Of a stretch of 35,008 nucleotides of DNA, positions 19,850-26,904 are shown one piece after another. Under the pieces are notes generated by a model. It made no database searches, was not told where the DNA came from, and saw only the letters and a program-made list of their open reading frames with translations. Numbering within the stretch: the first letter of the stretch is position 1; every line of letters begins with the position of its first letter. Position numbers and translations under genes: made by a program. Origin of the DNA: a virus; the IMG/VR virus record IMGVR_UViG_3300025759_000303, positions 1 to 35,008 of that record; one strand, given 5' to 3'.

Positions 19850-21586
19850 TTAACCAGCCGACGCAGCAGCCATGAGTTGCTGTGTCATTTGTTGATCATC
19901 AGCCTGTTGGGTCCGCCCTGCGGAAACGCTTCTACGAACGTACTCGCGAGATGACGTCGGCGACTTGCCAGGTTGTCCCTGTATCGACGCATCGCCAAAA
20001 GTCGAAATCGCCGGAACAATATCGGCAAGTTCCGGCATGTTCGAATACTTCGCAACAAGGGCCAAATAAGCGTTCACGTCCGGCTGAACTCCGAATTGAG
20101 TCAGCGGCATGATGTCTTGCGTGAACACCTGACGAAGAAGTTGCAGCCGTTCGCCTGGCGACAAATCCTGCATCGAGAACGGCTCGATGTCGAAATCGTA
20201 CTGGTCGAACTCGCCTTCCCGGGCATCGATCTCAACGCCGAACTCGTCCTGCTGGAACGGCCATTTCGTGTCCAGTTCGACGTCCGTCCCGGGTATCTTC
20301 TGCGTCAGATCCATCTCCAGCATCGGATCATGGAACAACCAGAAAGCGATGTCCGCGACCACTTTTTTGATCGCAGAGCTGACGCCGCCCTGCATTTGTT
20401 TGAGCCGATCGGAAGAAGACTCCTTGATGATCTTCTCCTGGCCGAGAGTGTCGGCCGTCGTCGAGCCACCAGTCAGAGCGTCAAGATTGCCCATGATGTA
20501 CGAGTTGACGCCCCGCATGTTCAACGCAAATGCAAGCGTAGCCTGATCCACGCCGCCGTATTTCGCCTCTTTCACCGAATTCGGATTCTGAACCATGACG
20601 GTCTCGCCGTCGTTGGCACTGATCACCGTGCGAGCGTCATCCTTGCCCATCGGTGTCGCGAACGTGACTGTCTTCTGCCGGGATGCCTGCTCGCCAAGTT
20701 TTGTGTAGAGCAGATTGAACAGATCATGCGAGTCAATCCAGTTGGCGACTGGCGGCAAAGGCATGATGTTGTTCAGCACACGATTGAAGCCGAGCAACCG
20801 ATACGGACCATGATCCGGCCCCGTCCACTCCTGCTCGCGAAGTGGCTTTGACTGAGTCTCGCTGAACGTCACGACCACGTTGTCCCGAGGAATCCAAATG
20901 TCCCAGAGTTCAACCGAAGGATCAAAGTCTGCGTCGTCAACCGATTTCTCTCCCGACAAATCTTCAATCCGTTCCTCGCCGATCCGCTCTTCGCGAAGAC
21001 TGGTAGACAATTTCGCAACCATTTCCTGGTCGAAATATGGATTCGCCTCTACGTCTGCGATCTTCATCTTGTACCGATGGCCGCAGAACGACACTTCGCG
21101 ACCCCATCGTTTCGCCCGAACATCATGCACCCAATCGTCCAGCATGATCGCTTCAGCGAAAACCTGCGTGTTCGCGAACGTCTCGTCGTCGATCTCGTGA
21201 AAGCCGGAAGAATAGGTGCCAATCTTCATGATCCCGATGCTGAACAGCGCCGACATCACCCAGAGCTGAAGCTCCGATTCGAAGTCCATCCGCTTCAAAG
21301 ACTCGTTGATTGCGAGTTCGAACTCTTTCGCGGACGCACGAAGCTCCCGCTTGTGCGTATTTACCAGCACCTGCGGAGCGCGCGCGGCGAGTTGCTGCAC
21401 GTATGTCGTGACGGCCATTTCCAGCATGTTGACCGGAACCGATTGAGATTTCGTGCGATCACCATAATGCGGACCCAGATACTGCATCATCGCTTCCCGC
21501 TGGCCGTCGCGGAACGGACGCAAGCCCTTGTGGGACTCATTAACTGCGTCCTTGAACTTGATGAAGCTGTCGCGGCTCATTGCCAT
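19850..21586 (-). CDS. portal protein
   Basis: A 578-residue protein in the classical place, overlapping the terminase gene by 10 bases. Early motifs include FRDGQREAMMQYLGPHYGDR and LEMAVTTYVQQLAARAPQVLV. The central YRLLGFNRVLNNIMPLPPVANWIDSHDLFNLLYTKLGEQASRQKTV and the later SYIMGNLDALTGGSTTADTLGQEKIIKESSSDRLKQMQGGVSSAIKKV resemble the wing/stem region and long helices of phage portals. The C-terminus is glutamine-rich and probably disordered. Portals form a dodecameric ring at one capsid vertex for DNA entry and exit. The start has AGG 6 bases upstream. Confidence 0.85.
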   Translation of the reverse strand: MAMSRDSFIKFKDAVNESHKGLRPFRDGQREAMMQYLGPHYGDRTKSQSVPVNMLEMAVTTYVQQLAARAPQVLVNTHKRELRASAKEFELAINESLKRMDFESELQLWVMSALFSIGIMKIGTYSSGFHEIDDETFANTQVFAEAIMLDDWVHDVRAKRWGREVSFCGHRYKMKIADVEANPYFDQEMVAKLSTSLREERIGEERIEDLSGEKSVDDADFDPSVELWDIWIPRDNVVVTFSETQSKPLREQEWTGPDHGPYRLLGFNRVLNNIMPLPPVANWIDSHDLFNLLYTKLGEQASRQKTVTFATPMGKDDARTVISANDGETVMVQNPNSVKEAKYGGVDQATLAFALNMRGVNSYIMGNLDALTGGSTTADTLGQEKIIKESSSDRLKQMQGGVSSAIKKVVADIAFWLFHDPMLEMDLTQKIPGTDVELDTKWPFQQDEFGVEIDAREGEFDQYDFDIEPFSMQDLSPGERLQLLRQVFTQDIMPLTQFGVQPDVNAYLALVAKYSNMPELADIVPAISTFGDASIQGQPGKSPTSSREYVRRSVSAGRTQQADDQQMTQQLMAAASAG

Positions 21587-23586
21587 CGGTTACCTGCCTG
21601 TGTTTCGTACGGCGACCAGTAGGATCGGTTACGCGAATCATTCATCGCTTTCTGGCGTCTCAGTCGACGGCCAAGAAACGAATCGTCGGGAATTTCGGCT
21701 TCCGGCTGCTGTTCAGGACGCACCGGCCAGTCCTCTACGCCATACCAGCCCAGAGCGATCGCAATCGCCATGTCTCCATGTGCCTTGCCTCGCGCAGACT
21801 CGTCGGTTTCGGATTGCTCGCCGGAATGGACAACTTTTCCGTTCTTGTAGAAGTATCGACCCATTTCCCGCAGGCCGATCGTTGAGTGAACGTGTGCCTC
21901 TCTCGCTTTAATGGCTTTCTGCAGCGATTTGAAGATCATGTCGCCGCCGTCCTGATTCGTGTAACCAGGGATCATCGTTCGATCCGAACCAGAAAGCTCC
22001 TTCTTTCGCCGGTGAAACAGGTTTCCGTAGCCAAGCTCCGTCACCCGCTTGATGAACATCGCCCCCGCACCGTTCGCTTCAGGAATCAGGTAGGCATTGT
22101 GAAAAAGCCGGCACAGATAGACGCCCAATTCCGCGAACTCCAGCGGATCCATCCGATTCGACCGCCATTCCATCACCTGCTCACCGGTTCGCTTGTCGAA
22201 ACCAGCGATCGCCGAGTAGCTCGACAGCGAGCCGCCCGTACCAAGTGCAATGTCAAAACCGAACGAGTATTCACTGAGCGGAGGCTTCCCTTCTTCCATC
22301 GGGCACCACAGTGTCATCGCCCCTTCGCTCTGAATGTCCATCTTCCATTCGGATTTGTTGTCGGGATCCCGATAGACTTCGGCGAACGACATCGGCGGCG
22401 ACACCCGAGCCATCGCCGACTTCAGAATCGATGAATCGAAAACCTGAGCCGCCGCACCGGTCGGATTCCGATCCAGTTCTGCCGCAATCGAATGTGCCGT
22501 CGCCCCGGGGCGATTGCATTCGAAGTCGTAATAGAGTGACCGCTTCTTGCCATCCAGAATGAACGCATAGTTCTCGCCGTCGACTGTCGGACTCCGGTAC
22601 GTCTTTTCGTCGACTTTGAATTCGCTCCAGAATTTCTCATCCAGAATCTTCAGCTCGAAATAGTCAGACTCTCCGAGCCGAGTCGATTCGTAAAGACCTC
22701 GAGCTTTCTGCTCGTCGTCCTTCCAGTCAATCTCGATCAGCTCGAGGTTTCGAGCGCCGCTGTTGATCACGTCGTAGAACGCGCCGGATTCGCCCCGACG
22801 TCGGTTCGCCGTGGAAACGAAGATTCGACAGCGAGTGACGTGCTGACTGGATTCCAGCGACTCCGAATCTGGACCGCTTGGAAAAAAGTGAAACTCGTCG
22901 AACAGGAACCACTTCTTTCGACCACCACGACCGATGTTTCCCGTCGCCGCGTAACCGCTGATCGTCGAGCCGTTCTGAAGATTCGACAAAGTGTGCGTCG
23001 TCAGATTTCGATTGAACTGCTTCGGATGAAGCAGCCAGTTGGGCAGCCGCTTGATCAGGAAGTCAATCTTCGAAAACAGGCTGTCTGGATCGTTCGCATC
23101 ATCGACCGACGCTTCGTCCTTGGAAGCCAGACCGATATGCGTTCCGGGATGAAACAGCCAGTCCCAGACCGCAATCGCAATGTAGATCCAAGTCACGCCT
23201 GTTTCGCGAGACTTCGGAACGCCGATGTCCCGTTTCCCGAGCACCTTCACGGATCGACGGATCACGTCGGCCTGATACTCGCGAGTGATGAACGGGATGT
23301 CGTTGGCCGAACCCAGCGGGTTTTCAATCTGCCACTCTGCCGCCGAACGAGCCTCAAGAATCCAGCAGAACGTGTTGATAAAAAACAGGCAGTCGCGAGC
23401 ACAAAGAATCGCAATCTCTTCAGCCATCGCCGGATCGTCGTAGCCCGCCTGAAGCACATCCCGTCGCCACTTCAGATTGGTCGACAGTTCGCGAGGCACG
23501 ATACGAGAAAGGACGTCGGAGTCTGTCTCCTGAAGACCGTCCTTTCTGTACCGCGTGAGAAATTCGGTGAGGGCCGATTCGCTCAT
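21577..23586 (-). CDS. terL: terminase large subunit
   Basis: A 669-residue ATPase-nuclease that pumps DNA into the prohead and cuts it. The N-terminal ATPase shows an atypical Walker A (VPKSRETGVTW, about 123-133), a Walker B WFLFDEF (about 226-232) and a coupling-like FVSTANRRRGE (about 256-266). The C-terminal RNase H-like nuclease has the expected acidic residues: D445 in FGFDIALGTGG, E503 in IPEANGAGA and D605 in AHGDMAIAIALGW. Its length is normal or slightly long for the family. The gene starts overlapping the stop of 23583-24578 by 4 bases and ends overlapping the portal start, so it lies at the head of the packaging operon. Confidence 0.93.
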   Translation of the reverse strand: MSESALTEFLTRYRKDGLQETDSDVLSRIVPRELSTNLKWRRDVLQAGYDDPAMAEEIAILCARDCLFFINTFCWILEARSAAEWQIENPLGSANDIPFITREYQADVIRRSVKVLGKRDIGVPKSRETGVTWIYIAIAVWDWLFHPGTHIGLASKDEASVDDANDPDSLFSKIDFLIKRLPNWLLHPKQFNRNLTTHTLSNLQNGSTISGYAATGNIGRGGRKKWFLFDEFHFFPSGPDSESLESSQHVTRCRIFVSTANRRRGESGAFYDVINSGARNLELIEIDWKDDEQKARGLYESTRLGESDYFELKILDEKFWSEFKVDEKTYRSPTVDGENYAFILDGKKRSLYYDFECNRPGATAHSIAAELDRNPTGAAAQVFDSSILKSAMARVSPPMSFAEVYRDPDNKSEWKMDIQSEGAMTLWCPMEEGKPPLSEYSFGFDIALGTGGSLSSYSAIAGFDKRTGEQVMEWRSNRMDPLEFAELGVYLCRLFHNAYLIPEANGAGAMFIKRVTELGYGNLFHRRKKELSGSDRTMIPGYTNQDGGDMIFKSLQKAIKAREAHVHSTIGLREMGRYFYKNGKVVHSGEQSETDESARGKAHGDMAIAIALGWYGVEDWPVRPEQQPEAEIPDDSFLGRRLRRQKAMNDSRNRSYWSPYETQAGNRWQ

Positions 23587-24760: not shown

Positions 24761-25522
24761 ATGGAACGTGCCCTGCTCTACGCGCGATTCTCTCCACGCC
24801 CAAAAGTCAAGAAGCGAAACCGCGTCGAAGACGGCGAGACCATCGAACTGCAGTTGAAGAACTGTCGTCGGTACTGCCAGATGCGAGACTTCGAAGTCGC
24901 CGAAGAAATCTCCGACACTTTCGAGTCAGCTCGGACCACGCCGCTCTTTGAGCGACCGGGTGGAAAGCACCTGCGAGAACTGCCCGAGAACGTCACCCAC
25001 ATCGTCACGTCGAAGATCGACCGACTCTTCCGAAACATGCGTGACGGACTCGATATGCTCGACCATTGGGACGCGAAAGGAATCACTATCCACTTCGCCG
25101 ATCAGGGCGGCAACTCAATCAACGTCTCGACCGCAATGGGCAGACACTTCGTCCGGTTCATGCTCTCCAACGCAGAATTCGAAGCCGACCTTACGTCGGA
25201 ACGGACGAGCCAGATGATGCAGCATCGACAGAAAAACGGCGAGCGAATGACGCACAAGAATCTTGTCCCGTACGGAAAGATGATCGACCCGAACGACGCC
25301 AACCGGATCGTCGACAACCCGGATGAAATCCGAATGATCAGCGAAGTCCTACTACTTCGCGACGAAGGATTCTCGTACCGAGCCATCTGCGAGCAGATGG
25401 AATGCAACGATCGCCAGCTCCGAAAAGGACCGTGGCACCCTCAGAAAGTCAAAGACATGATCAAGACGGGCCTTGCGTCTGCCGCTCTTCTTCACGAGCC
25501 AGTCGCCGCCGAGCGTGCTTGA
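24761..25522 (+). CDS. serine recombinase (resolvase/invertase family)
   Basis: A 253-residue protein. The N-terminal catalytic domain opens ERALLYARFSPRPK, with the expected nucleophile Ser11. It continues with ESARTTPLFERPGG, then THIVTSKIDRLFRNMRDGLDMLDHWDAKGITIHFADQ carrying the conserved D-R-L-x-R cluster, and the long E-helix (GRHFVRFMLSNAEFEADLTSERT). The C-terminal part (RIVDNPDEIRMISEVLLLRDEGFSYRAICEQM) resembles the small recombinase DNA-binding domain. It is much shorter than large phage serine integrases. It may be the element's integrase or resolvase. It lies alone on the plus strand, opposite to the packaging operon, with AGGA 8 bases before the ATG. Confidence 0.85.
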   Translation: MERALLYARFSPRPKVKKRNRVEDGETIELQLKNCRRYCQMRDFEVAEEISDTFESARTTPLFERPGGKHLRELPENVTHIVTSKIDRLFRNMRDGLDMLDHWDAKGITIHFADQGGNSINVSTAMGRHFVRFMLSNAEFEADLTSERTSQMMQHRQKNGERMTHKNLVPYGKMIDPNDANRIVDNPDEIRMISEVLLLRDEGFSYRAICEQMECNDRQLRKGPWHPQKVKDMIKTGLASAALLHEPVAAERA

Positions 25523-25785: not shown

Positions 25786-25828
25786 AGATAACTCTATATT
25801 TCGGAATCCGTATAATTCAGAGTTATCC
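25786..25828. repeat. attC-like site F (left end of the RNA cassette)
   Basis: A 9-bp inverted repeat (GATAACTCT / AGAGTTATC) carries core-like ends AGATAAC (25786-25792) and GTTATCC (25822-25828), with a small CGG/CCG inner stem. The right core GTTATCCTG is the exact reverse complement of CAGGATAAC at the other end of the RNA cassette (26082-26090). This is the match expected for the two ends of one integron cassette. The site is short, so the attC call is tentative; an operator dyad is the alternative. Confidence 0.5.
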
Positions 25829-25835
25829 TGACAAA

Positions 25836-25907
25836 GCGATTGGTCGGAGTCGAACCGACACGGCGAGCATACGTCCTCGCTATGGCTGCCATTACCATCA
25901 CAATCGC
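25836..25907 (-). tRNA. tRNA-like gene with non-canonical anticodon loop
   Basis: Read on the minus strand, the 72 bases fold as a cloverleaf. The 7-bp acceptor is GCGATTG/CAATCGC. The D-arm is ATGG/CCAT with a GG in the loop, and the anticodon-like stem is GCGAG/CTCGC. The T-arm is GTCGG/CCGAC with the canonical loop TTCGACT. CCA is not encoded (TTTG follows). The anticodon loop has 8 bases (GACGTATG) and no T at position 33, and the variable loop has 3, so no amino acid can be assigned. It lies in an ORF-free cassette, about 120 bases downstream of the hammerhead cleavage site on the same strand. It could be a degenerate tRNA, a frameshifting tRNA or a tRNA mimic. Confidence 0.65.
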
Positions 25908-26026
25908 GGGTGCTGGGCTTCGTATCCGGCTACCACATCCGCCCCGTCCGGTCTTCGCCTCAAACCCACTCCGAAGAATGACCTTGAGGCTGGGCGGCCT
26001 TGTCCACTCACAACCCAGCTAGTGGC

Positions 26027-26075
26027 CTAAGCGACGCTAGAAAGCGTTTCGTCCCCACGGACTCATCAGGCTTAG
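26027..26075 (-). ncRNA. hammerhead ribozyme, type I
   Basis: On the minus strand every hammerhead element is present in order. Stem I 5' strand CTAAGC is 26075-26070, core CTGATGA 26069-26063, stem II GTCC-GTGG-GGAC 26062-26051, GAAA 26050-26047 and stem III CGC-loop TTTCTA-GCG 26046-26035. The cleavage dinucleotide TC is 26034-26033, and stem I 3' strand GCTTAG 26032-26027. All core nucleotides (CUGAUGA, GAA, the A15.1-U16.1 pair, C17) match the consensus, and all stems are perfect. Cleavage is predicted between 26033 and 26032. It lies 95 bases after the stop of the TGT-like gene and upstream of the tRNA-like gene, so it would separate the two on a read-through transcript. Confidence 0.92.
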
Positions 26076-26083
26076 AAAATGCA

Positions 26084-26173
26084 GGATAACCAAAACATGC
26101 ACGGGAGTTGCGGGTCTCGCGTGTTCTGAATGGAAAGCAACTTGCCGCAACCCCGTGATATTAAACGTTCTAC
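26084..26173. repeat. attC-like site E
   Basis: On the plus strand it starts with core GGATAAC (26084-26090) and ends with GTTCTAC (26167-26173). Between them is a hairpin of CACGGG + GTTGCGG (26100-26113) with CCGCAAC + CCCGTG (26145-26157). The 13-bp stem has a single unpaired A at 26106 in the 5' arm. Core sites, 90-base length and one extrahelical A in the 5' arm are the features known for integron attC sites. The stop codon of the TGT-like gene lies inside GTTCTAC. There is no T-run, so it is not a usual terminator. Confidence 0.7.
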
Positions 26174-26904
26174 GCAAACAGTCGCAGTTGCTCGGGCTTC
26201 TCAATCCCACACCACACTGCCGCCGATTGATGTGCCTCAATCCGCTCCGCGATGATCGCCATGCGTGTGCTCGCATTCGGCGGCACGTACTGGCCGAAGC
26301 GTCCATAGTTGCTCGAATTTCGGACCGCGTTGGTGGAATCCGCCGACGCGAATGGCAACTGCTGAAAGATCGCCGGGTCAAGCATTCGCAGCCCATGCAG
26401 CTTGCACCGTGGACGGCCCGCATCGTCGCAGATCACACGCATCGCCTCGGCCATCCGTGCCCACCATTTATCTGTGCCCGGATTCGGCCATTCGCCGGAA
26501 CTGCCGATTGCAAGTCTCGGCCAAGTGCACAGCCTGTCAAGCCGCTCCAGTGATTCGTGCATATGCCACACCGGCACGCCTTCTATGTGACTCGGCCATT
26601 CGTCGAGCAGCGCGTCATTCTCTTCTTCGCTGCCGTCGATAACATCCGGGATCACAGCCCAATCGAACGCCGGATGTCGGTGCAACGCCTCGCAGAAGCC
26701 GTAATACGGTCGCCACGTTGTGACAGCCTGCCCGGCCATCCAGGCACTGAAAGCGCCGTTGTCTACCGCAAACGACTGGCAGACCTCTGCAGCCGTACCG
26801 ATGTCTTCTGGCCGGAAAAACGAGATGAAGGCGTGCCGCCCTTTCAAGAATCGGGCGACATCTTGCCGTGTTCCGCCGCATGGTGTCCCGTGGTAATGCA
26901 GCAT
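26170..26904 (-). CDS. TGT/DpdA-superfamily-like TIM-barrel protein
   Basis: A 244-residue protein whose strand order fits a TIM barrel like tRNA-guanine transglycosylase: HAFISFF, FAVDNGAFSAW (compare the TGT DSGGFQ strand), DWAVIPDVIDGSEEEND, VPVWHMHES, RLAIGSSGEW, KLHGLRML, and FASADSTN (compare the catalytic aspartate strand). Family members exchange guanine for a 7-deazaguanine base in tRNA, or in DNA for the DpdA branch. There is no zinc site at the C-terminus, and the protein is shorter than classical TGT. No preQ0 synthesis genes are in the window. It fills a cassette exactly between attC-like sites E and D, next to the RNA cassette. The superfamily call is from pattern; substrate unknown. 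Confidence 0.62.
   Translation of the reverse strand: MLHYHGTPCGGTRQDVARFLKGRHAFISFFRPEDIGTAAEVCQSFAVDNGAFSAWMAGQAVTTWRPYYGFCEALHRHPAFDWAVIPDVIDGSEEENDALLDEWPSHIEGVPVWHMHESLERLDRLCTWPRLAIGSSGEWPNPGTDKWWARMAEAMRVICDDAGRPRCKLHGLRMLDPAIFQQLPFASADSTNAVRNSSNYGRFGQYVPPNASTRMAIIAERIEAHQSAAVWCGIEKPEQLRLFA

Follow-up and report, generated by a model that had tools for sequence, protein, structure and literature searches.

Hammerhead ribozymes have been described in viral settings before. They flank genes in prophages, where the processing of long phage transcripts was proposed in 2011 (PMC3088659), and haloviruses of the HF1 group carry both hammerhead and tRNA-like sequences, whose functions were said to need study (PMC7230728). 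Another self-cleaving class, the HDV-like theta ribozymes, lies beside phage tRNAs and has been proposed to trim the tRNA 3' trailer (PMC10879173). A 2017 review presents the roles of hammerheads in prokaryotes as an open question (PMC6155905). Here we analysed a viral stretch of 35,008 nucleotides (IMG/VR virus record IMGVR_UViG_3300025759_000303, positions 1 to 35,008; hereafter the window) that carries a hammerhead on its minus strand. This hammerhead is probably more than a gene separator, and taken as a whole the comparison of sequences leads us to favour, with moderate confidence, that it makes the 5' end of a structured phage RNA.

In its core, three stems, open stem I and phage setting, the element is the same as the phage and prophage type I hammerheads (RF00163; PMC3088659). 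However, those described in PMC3088659 flanked genes, whereas the one in the window leads into a conserved RNA with pseudoknots and then a tRNA-like element. The HF1-group haloviruses are similar in having hammerhead and tRNA-like sequences in one virus, but the available part of PMC7230728 mentions no fused structured RNA such as the one present here. Like the theta ribozymes of PMC10879173, the hammerheads considered below are a self-cleaving class beside phage tRNAs with a proposed role in tRNA maturation; unlike them, they belong to another class and are found on the 5' side of the tRNA or structured RNA. The open-licence literature, in its accessible text, yielded no description of a hammerhead linked to a structured RNA of a phage or to the 5' end of a tRNA.

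Read on the minus strand from 26075 to 26027, the ribozyme begins with stem I (CUAAGC/GCUUAG, six pairs), followed by CUGAUGA, a stem II of four pairs (GUCC-GUGG-GGAC), GAA, and a stem III of four to five pairs (ACGC-UUUCUA-GCGU) that leads into C17; stem I is open, and stems II and III are capped. The invariant core (CUGANGA, GAA, A15.1-U16.1 and H17) was found both by direct reading and by a motif scan, and A15.1-U16.1, G10.1-C11.1, the C at H17 and the core agree with the type I consensus. C17 is base 26033, so the predicted cut falls between 26033 and 26032 and the 3' product would begin at 26032. The Rfam model Hammerhead_1 (RF00163) was matched end to end in a cmscan search of 421 bases (28.2 bits, E 5.8e-5) and is absent from the list of matches of the whole-window search. 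A first-pass annotation of the window had called a complete type I hammerhead with core and three stems on the minus strand, predicted to be cleaved after the C at 26033; the direct reading and the full-length model match bear out the call, and our predicted position agrees.

The motif-plus-stem scan found one hammerhead only in the window and, at the same stringency, one match among 1500 first-order random windows. RNAfold recovered the three-stem fold with an unexceptional energy, 10 of 200 shuffled versions of the 49-mer folding equally well. Judged by the motif alone a chance origin, called very unlikely in the first-pass annotation, is unlikely, not absurd, and the strongest argument against it is that a different phage (L205, below) keeps the ribozyme with changed loops. 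We conclude that, at the level of sequence, the hammerhead motif is genuine. As for the earlier claim that it lies outside coding regions, the two open reading frames that overlap it, one of 128 amino acids continuing in a different frame from the upstream TGT-like gene and one of 114 amino acids on the opposite strand touching the last four ribozyme bases, are judged mechanical. No HDV-like (theta) family was listed in the region by cmscan with E up to 10, and the core is that of a hammerhead instead. Between the TGT-like gene and the hammerhead, a strong hairpin occupies 26076-26170 on the minus strand (z -3.2).

A pattern scan of IMG/VR for hammerheads returned at least 120 stretches, including a different contig of 51 kb (L089, extended as L205). 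The L205 hammerhead has the same stem I, another four-base loop II and an altered stem III loop, and it scored 28.4 bits against RF00163. Identity between the window and L205 is 71% over 175 nucleotides, ribozyme included (E 4e-21 within the loci compared). In L205 the hammerhead and RNA are followed by a small terminase fused to a GIY-YIG domain, then by the large terminase and the portal. About 315 nucleotides downstream of the L205 hammerhead there is also a weak Twister-sister match on the plus strand (L205:6384-6454; 27.6 bits, gathering score 34).

From the predicted cut onwards, 121 nucleotides in the window and 126 in L205 support five shared helices, namely two hairpins, an enclosing helix and two pseudoknots (Table 1); we refer to this as the A-type RNA. 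In a structure-blind alignment of the two copies, 10 of 32 pairs are changed on both sides and still pair. Overall 96.9% of cells pair, against 27-46% with zero to one both-side changes when the partners are slid, and the observed values were reached by 1 of 500 shuffles. All seven pairs of pseudoknot 1 are kept in L205, three of them with both-side changes, and pseudoknot 2, which reads CCGA/UCGG in L205, keeps four of four with one such change; of the five aligned pairs in the enclosing helix, two form in the window only after a one-base shift. We drew the five-helix structure by hand with both sequences in view, and this gives it an advantage over the slid versions. A shared-helix search blind to the drawing, in a region whose end we had set at pseudoknot 1, ranked pseudoknot 1 as the best helix; in 2000 column shuffles neither the total score nor the both-side-change count was attained, and two of the 2000 equalled the best single helix. 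These results indicate that the 121 nucleotides are constrained as RNA structure, as far as covariation between sequences can tell. The stretch in the window has no Rfam match (cmscan, E up to 10), and that in L205 matches only microRNA and long noncoding RNA families, far under their gathering scores.

Several other searches were made for relatives. L002, L150 and L203 represent one contig; L002 agrees with the window at every position over 6431 bases and L150 over 8851, so this contig carries no comparative weight. A covariance model built from both A-type copies (R2), run on 130 of 228 sequence sources, found no further member; apart from the building copies, and the L205 copy matched on its reverse strand, its best match had 14.7 bits (E 0.56). 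A narrow ribozyme pattern matched 12 viral stretches, the window's twin included, and nothing in genome contigs. The other loci with TGT relatives (L003-L081, among the best 80 of 367) yielded no hammerhead in a type I scan. The window element had no BLAST match in 50,697 phage records. In L202 the ribozyme pattern was matched by chance within a coding-looking stretch, and L226, L227, L209 and L210 (Halobiforma) hold short RNA motifs only; by eye they have neither a hammerhead nor the remaining fold and were judged chance matches.

A second RNA with a similar layout (B-type) was found behind other hammerheads. The stem I sequence CUGUCU/AGACAG is present in 12 listed loci, seven of which run into B-type RNA; the other five (L082, L091, L111, L117 and L157) lead to a short hairpin with a small gene after it. 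Scanning for the B-type 5' motif, with AGACAGC, the stem I strand, required and the ribozyme not, gave 22 stretches. Three (L213, L217, L223) were judged coding chance matches and dropped, as were six near-duplicates recognised by eye (L095, L215, L216, L219, L222, L225), leaving 13 distinct loci. A type I hammerhead lies directly upstream in all 13, as judged by the core motif and by eye. Next come a hairpin, its loop able to pair with the RNA's 3' end, and a variable middle. Each of the 11 members aligned, a set without L116 and L224, retains this loop-3' end pairing, in which one pair varies, being G-C in seven and A-U in four. The B-type covariance model (R1) matched two held-out members at 38.6 and 36.4 bits. 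An ARAGORN tRNA starts within 10 nucleotides of the end of the B-type RNA in four of the 13 (L116, L125, L191, L212). Against the same phage records, two B-type BLAST queries had no match; with a third, L116, the matches were four OLIVR records and were confined to the hammerhead (E 0.04). The recurrence of such hammerhead-RNA pairs in other phages suggests that hammerheads serve phages in making the 5' ends of structured RNAs.

Long stem III inserts occur in three of the 13 B-type hammerheads. In L218, L221 and L212 the stem III loop is replaced by a structured-looking insert of about 50-100 nucleotides, alike in L218 and L221, and these are possibly natural ligand-controlled ribozymes. Genes of 81 amino acids that are similar by eye (MTKTE...) lie at L111:1877-2212 and L214:5253-5687, both on the minus strand; the leader is a hammerhead plus a simple 5' hairpin in L111 and a hammerhead plus B-type RNA in L214, and from these sequences it may be a module exchangeable between phages. 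A further conserved-looking RNA was seen in tRNA arrays, upstream of the hammerheads in L125 and L207 and downstream in L191, with the motif ...GAAAACTTCA.TTCTAGA...GGTGAGACGCAGCA.ATAG...

Hammerheads were also found at the very start of tRNAs. Loci L082-L201 contain 135 hammerheads among the matches listed, a sample biased by the search pattern and with near-duplicate contigs included, and three of these (one in L107, two in L109) are predicted to be cut precisely at the 5' boundary of a tRNA. The acceptor pairs are 7/7 in each of these tRNAs, the first of which in L109 was missed by ARAGORN and has a partial Rfam tRNA match (33.6 bits). A fourth case, L165, would be left with a one-base leader. 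In those hammerhead-tRNA cases one strand serves both elements, as the 5' side of the acceptor stem and as the 3' side of stem I. Within 500 nucleotides on either side, a tRNA is present for 17 of 136 hammerheads among the matches listed, counting the window's copy once. L130 has seven type I hammerheads in one 10.8-kb stretch. The cultivated Agrobacterium phage OLIVR1 (MT234338.1) has a type I hammerhead by eye at L208:3961-4008, unannotated in the features listed, and it sits just after the apparent 3' end of a tRNA with CCA.

Our reading of the hammerhead as a maker of 5' ends is based on the conserved RNA straight after the predicted cut, the similar layout of the B-type loci and the predicted cuts at tRNA first bases. 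A minus-strand transcript extending beyond the TGT-like gene would contain the ribozyme, which, with its core intact, is expected to cut itself after C17. The 3' product would have a 5'-OH end and start with the leftover stem I strand GCUUAG, and the released RNA of 121 nucleotides would fold compactly with two pseudoknots, a structure backed by the covariation between the two phages. Perhaps the 3' end could be set by an RNase P cut 5' of the tRNA-like cloverleaf; this is the weakest step and is proposed by analogy. A tRNA-like fold of the mascRNA type, lying immediately 3' of a noncoding RNA, could direct RNase P, but mascRNA-type elements belong to eukaryotic long noncoding RNAs, unlike the phage setting here. 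The product may act alone, or it may shield the 5' end of the downstream packaging-operon transcript.

Several points weigh against this reading. The focused covariance-model search, named as a check in the first-pass annotation, did match RF00163, but with a score under the curated threshold (28.2 against a gathering score of 34 bits); a gathering score is set by a curator and does not define the hammerhead molecule. Fast cleavage at cellular Mg2+ needs a contact between loop II and stem I, and the candidate in the window, a pairing of loop II GUGG with an adjacent CCAC, is a guess by eye that has about two pairs at best in L205. Only two distinct A-type members were found, mostly via exact patterns, and the A-type structure and its linkage to the ribozyme rest on these two sequence copies plus the analogy with the B-type. 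No tRNA was found downstream of the hammerhead in L205, where the tRNA-like element is missing. The folding energy of the RNA is ordinary in the window (z -1.4), whereas that in L205 is strong (z -5.5). No sigma-70-type promoter or terminator was found near the window element. As for the B-type, AGACAGC is itself the stem I strand, so that the 13 of 13 is partly built into the scan. Four of the five pairs of the loop-3' end pairing never vary, which makes it thin evidence; L224 would break the single varying pair, and RNAalifold gives a weak consensus for the alignment. The R1 model matches neither the window nor L205 (E up to 10, default filters), and the idea of one family comprising both types gained no support from this test; the A-type and B-type RNAs may therefore be unrelated, and our claim is limited to a similar layout.

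The tRNA-like element begins four nucleotides past the 3' strand of pseudoknot 1. Its cloverleaf fold has acceptor, D, anticodon and T arms, and 26 of 200 shuffles fold equally well; the canonical 7-nucleotide anticodon loop with U33 is replaced by one of 8 nucleotides. The tRNA-Sec model gave 26.8 bits (gathering score 47), with E 0.003 in the 421-base search and 0.25 for the whole window. Default ARAGORN reported no tRNA at this element, while -ps95 reported 'tRNA-???(cgta)'. Looser ARAGORN settings also give an implausible tRNA-Ser over the ribozyme, so they prove little alone, and we regard the support for the element as moderate. Of the two genes between which the first-pass annotation placed the ribozyme, the TGT-like one matches phrog_887, and the tRNA-like one is reported by ARAGORN under relaxed settings only. 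An inverted repeat (GATAACTCT...AGAGTTATC) at 25802-25842, shortly after the tRNA-like element and close to the resolvase gene (24761-25522), might be a recombination site.

No Pfam family matched the TGT-like gene or the probable terminase large subunit. The window also encodes a structural protein and the resolvase, the latter on the opposite strand between the A-type RNA and the terminase, which lies more than 2 kb downstream of the RNA.

Table 1. Features of the window and the hammerhead-tRNA junctions in other loci
Feature	Position	Strand	Basis or remark
Type I hammerhead ribozyme	26027..26075	-	RF00163 match; core and stems read directly; kept in L205
A-type structured RNA, 121 nucleotides, from the predicted cut	25912..26032	-	Similarity and covariation with L205
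First hairpin, CCACU/AGUGG	26004..26025	-	5/5 pairs kept in L205, 1 both-side change
Pseudoknot 1, 5' strand (loop of first hairpin)	26013..26019	-	Partner 25912-25918
Pseudoknot 1, 3' strand (3' end of the RNA)	25912..25918	-	Best shared helix in structure-naive search
Helix CCGCCC/GGGCGG around the long hairpin	25939..25997	-	Fits both phages after one-base hand shift
Long hairpin	25957-25990	-	11/11 pairs kept, 5 both-side changes
Pseudoknot 2, CCGG (25948-25951) with CCGG (25926-25929)	25926..25951	-	
tRNA-like cloverleaf	25836..25907	-	8-nucleotide anticodon loop GACGUAUG; no U33; CCA not encoded
TGT-like gene, upstream	26170..26904	-	phrog_887 queuine tRNA-ribosyltransferase, E 2e-72
Probable terminase large subunit, downstream	21577..23586	-	phrog_5989, E 3.1e-18, residues 60-236
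Hammerhead-tRNA junctions	L109:6478-6756; L107:8394-8525; L165 3315-3438 (reverse-complement coordinates)		

Alternatively, the ribozyme and pseudoknot could lead the late, packaging transcript, the 5'-OH and the closed fold blocking RNases that depend on a 5' end. At both A-type loci the terminase genes are downstream on the same strand, and the 81-amino-acid genes, matched by eye, are led by a hammerhead with either a hairpin or a B-type RNA; both points speak for a protective leader. However, the window has the tRNA-like element between the RNA and the next gene, with the terminase at a distance, and four of the 13 B-type RNAs lead into tRNAs rather than messages, so that we hold this alternative to be rather unlikely.

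The ribozyme might instead only split a long transcript between the TGT-like and the downstream messages, with the fold behind it incidental. The first-pass annotation had noted that hammerheads are known in phages, as in the prophage cases of PMC3088659, and had considered one acting as a gene separator unusual. The latter holds less well, given that hammerheads flanking prophage genes were proposed to process transcripts as early as 2011, and what lies directly downstream in the window is a conserved pseudoknotted RNA and not a protein gene. This precedent and the many hammerheads of several contigs, such as L130, speak for simple separation. The constraint on the downstream 121 nucleotides as RNA structure, and the joining of the ribozyme to a conserved RNA in the 13 B-type loci as well, speak against it, and we consider it unlikely.

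It is very improbable that the conserved stretch is a DNA element, such as a cos/pac-like site near the terminase genes: it is found upstream of these genes in both phages, but its crossing helices with both-side changes, its G-U exchanges and the fused ribozyme indicate RNA. Least credible is an RNA element flanked by ribozymes, circular or retrozyme-like; the weak Twister-sister match in L205 could be cited for it, but the window has no second ribozyme listed and a single hammerhead in the motif scan.

The 5'-end-making reading may extend further. It is conceivable, and we put it forward tentatively, that hammerheads are a general 5'-maturation device of phages for hidden structured RNAs and tRNAs, used in place of host RNase P or RNase E, that tRNAs or tRNA-like decoys mark the 3' ends, and that the A-type RNA is free-standing. 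A link of the A-type RNA to DNA packaging is possible, as both known copies are upstream of terminase genes. The finding would give phage hammerheads a concrete role, the making of 5' ends, suggested by a predicted cut at the exact start of a covarying fold or, elsewhere, at the first base of a tRNA. It also brings forward candidate RNA families without any Rfam model match at threshold, and the modular arrangement, in which one kind of ribozyme is combined with varied downstream RNAs, may be of use to RNA biologists and engineers.
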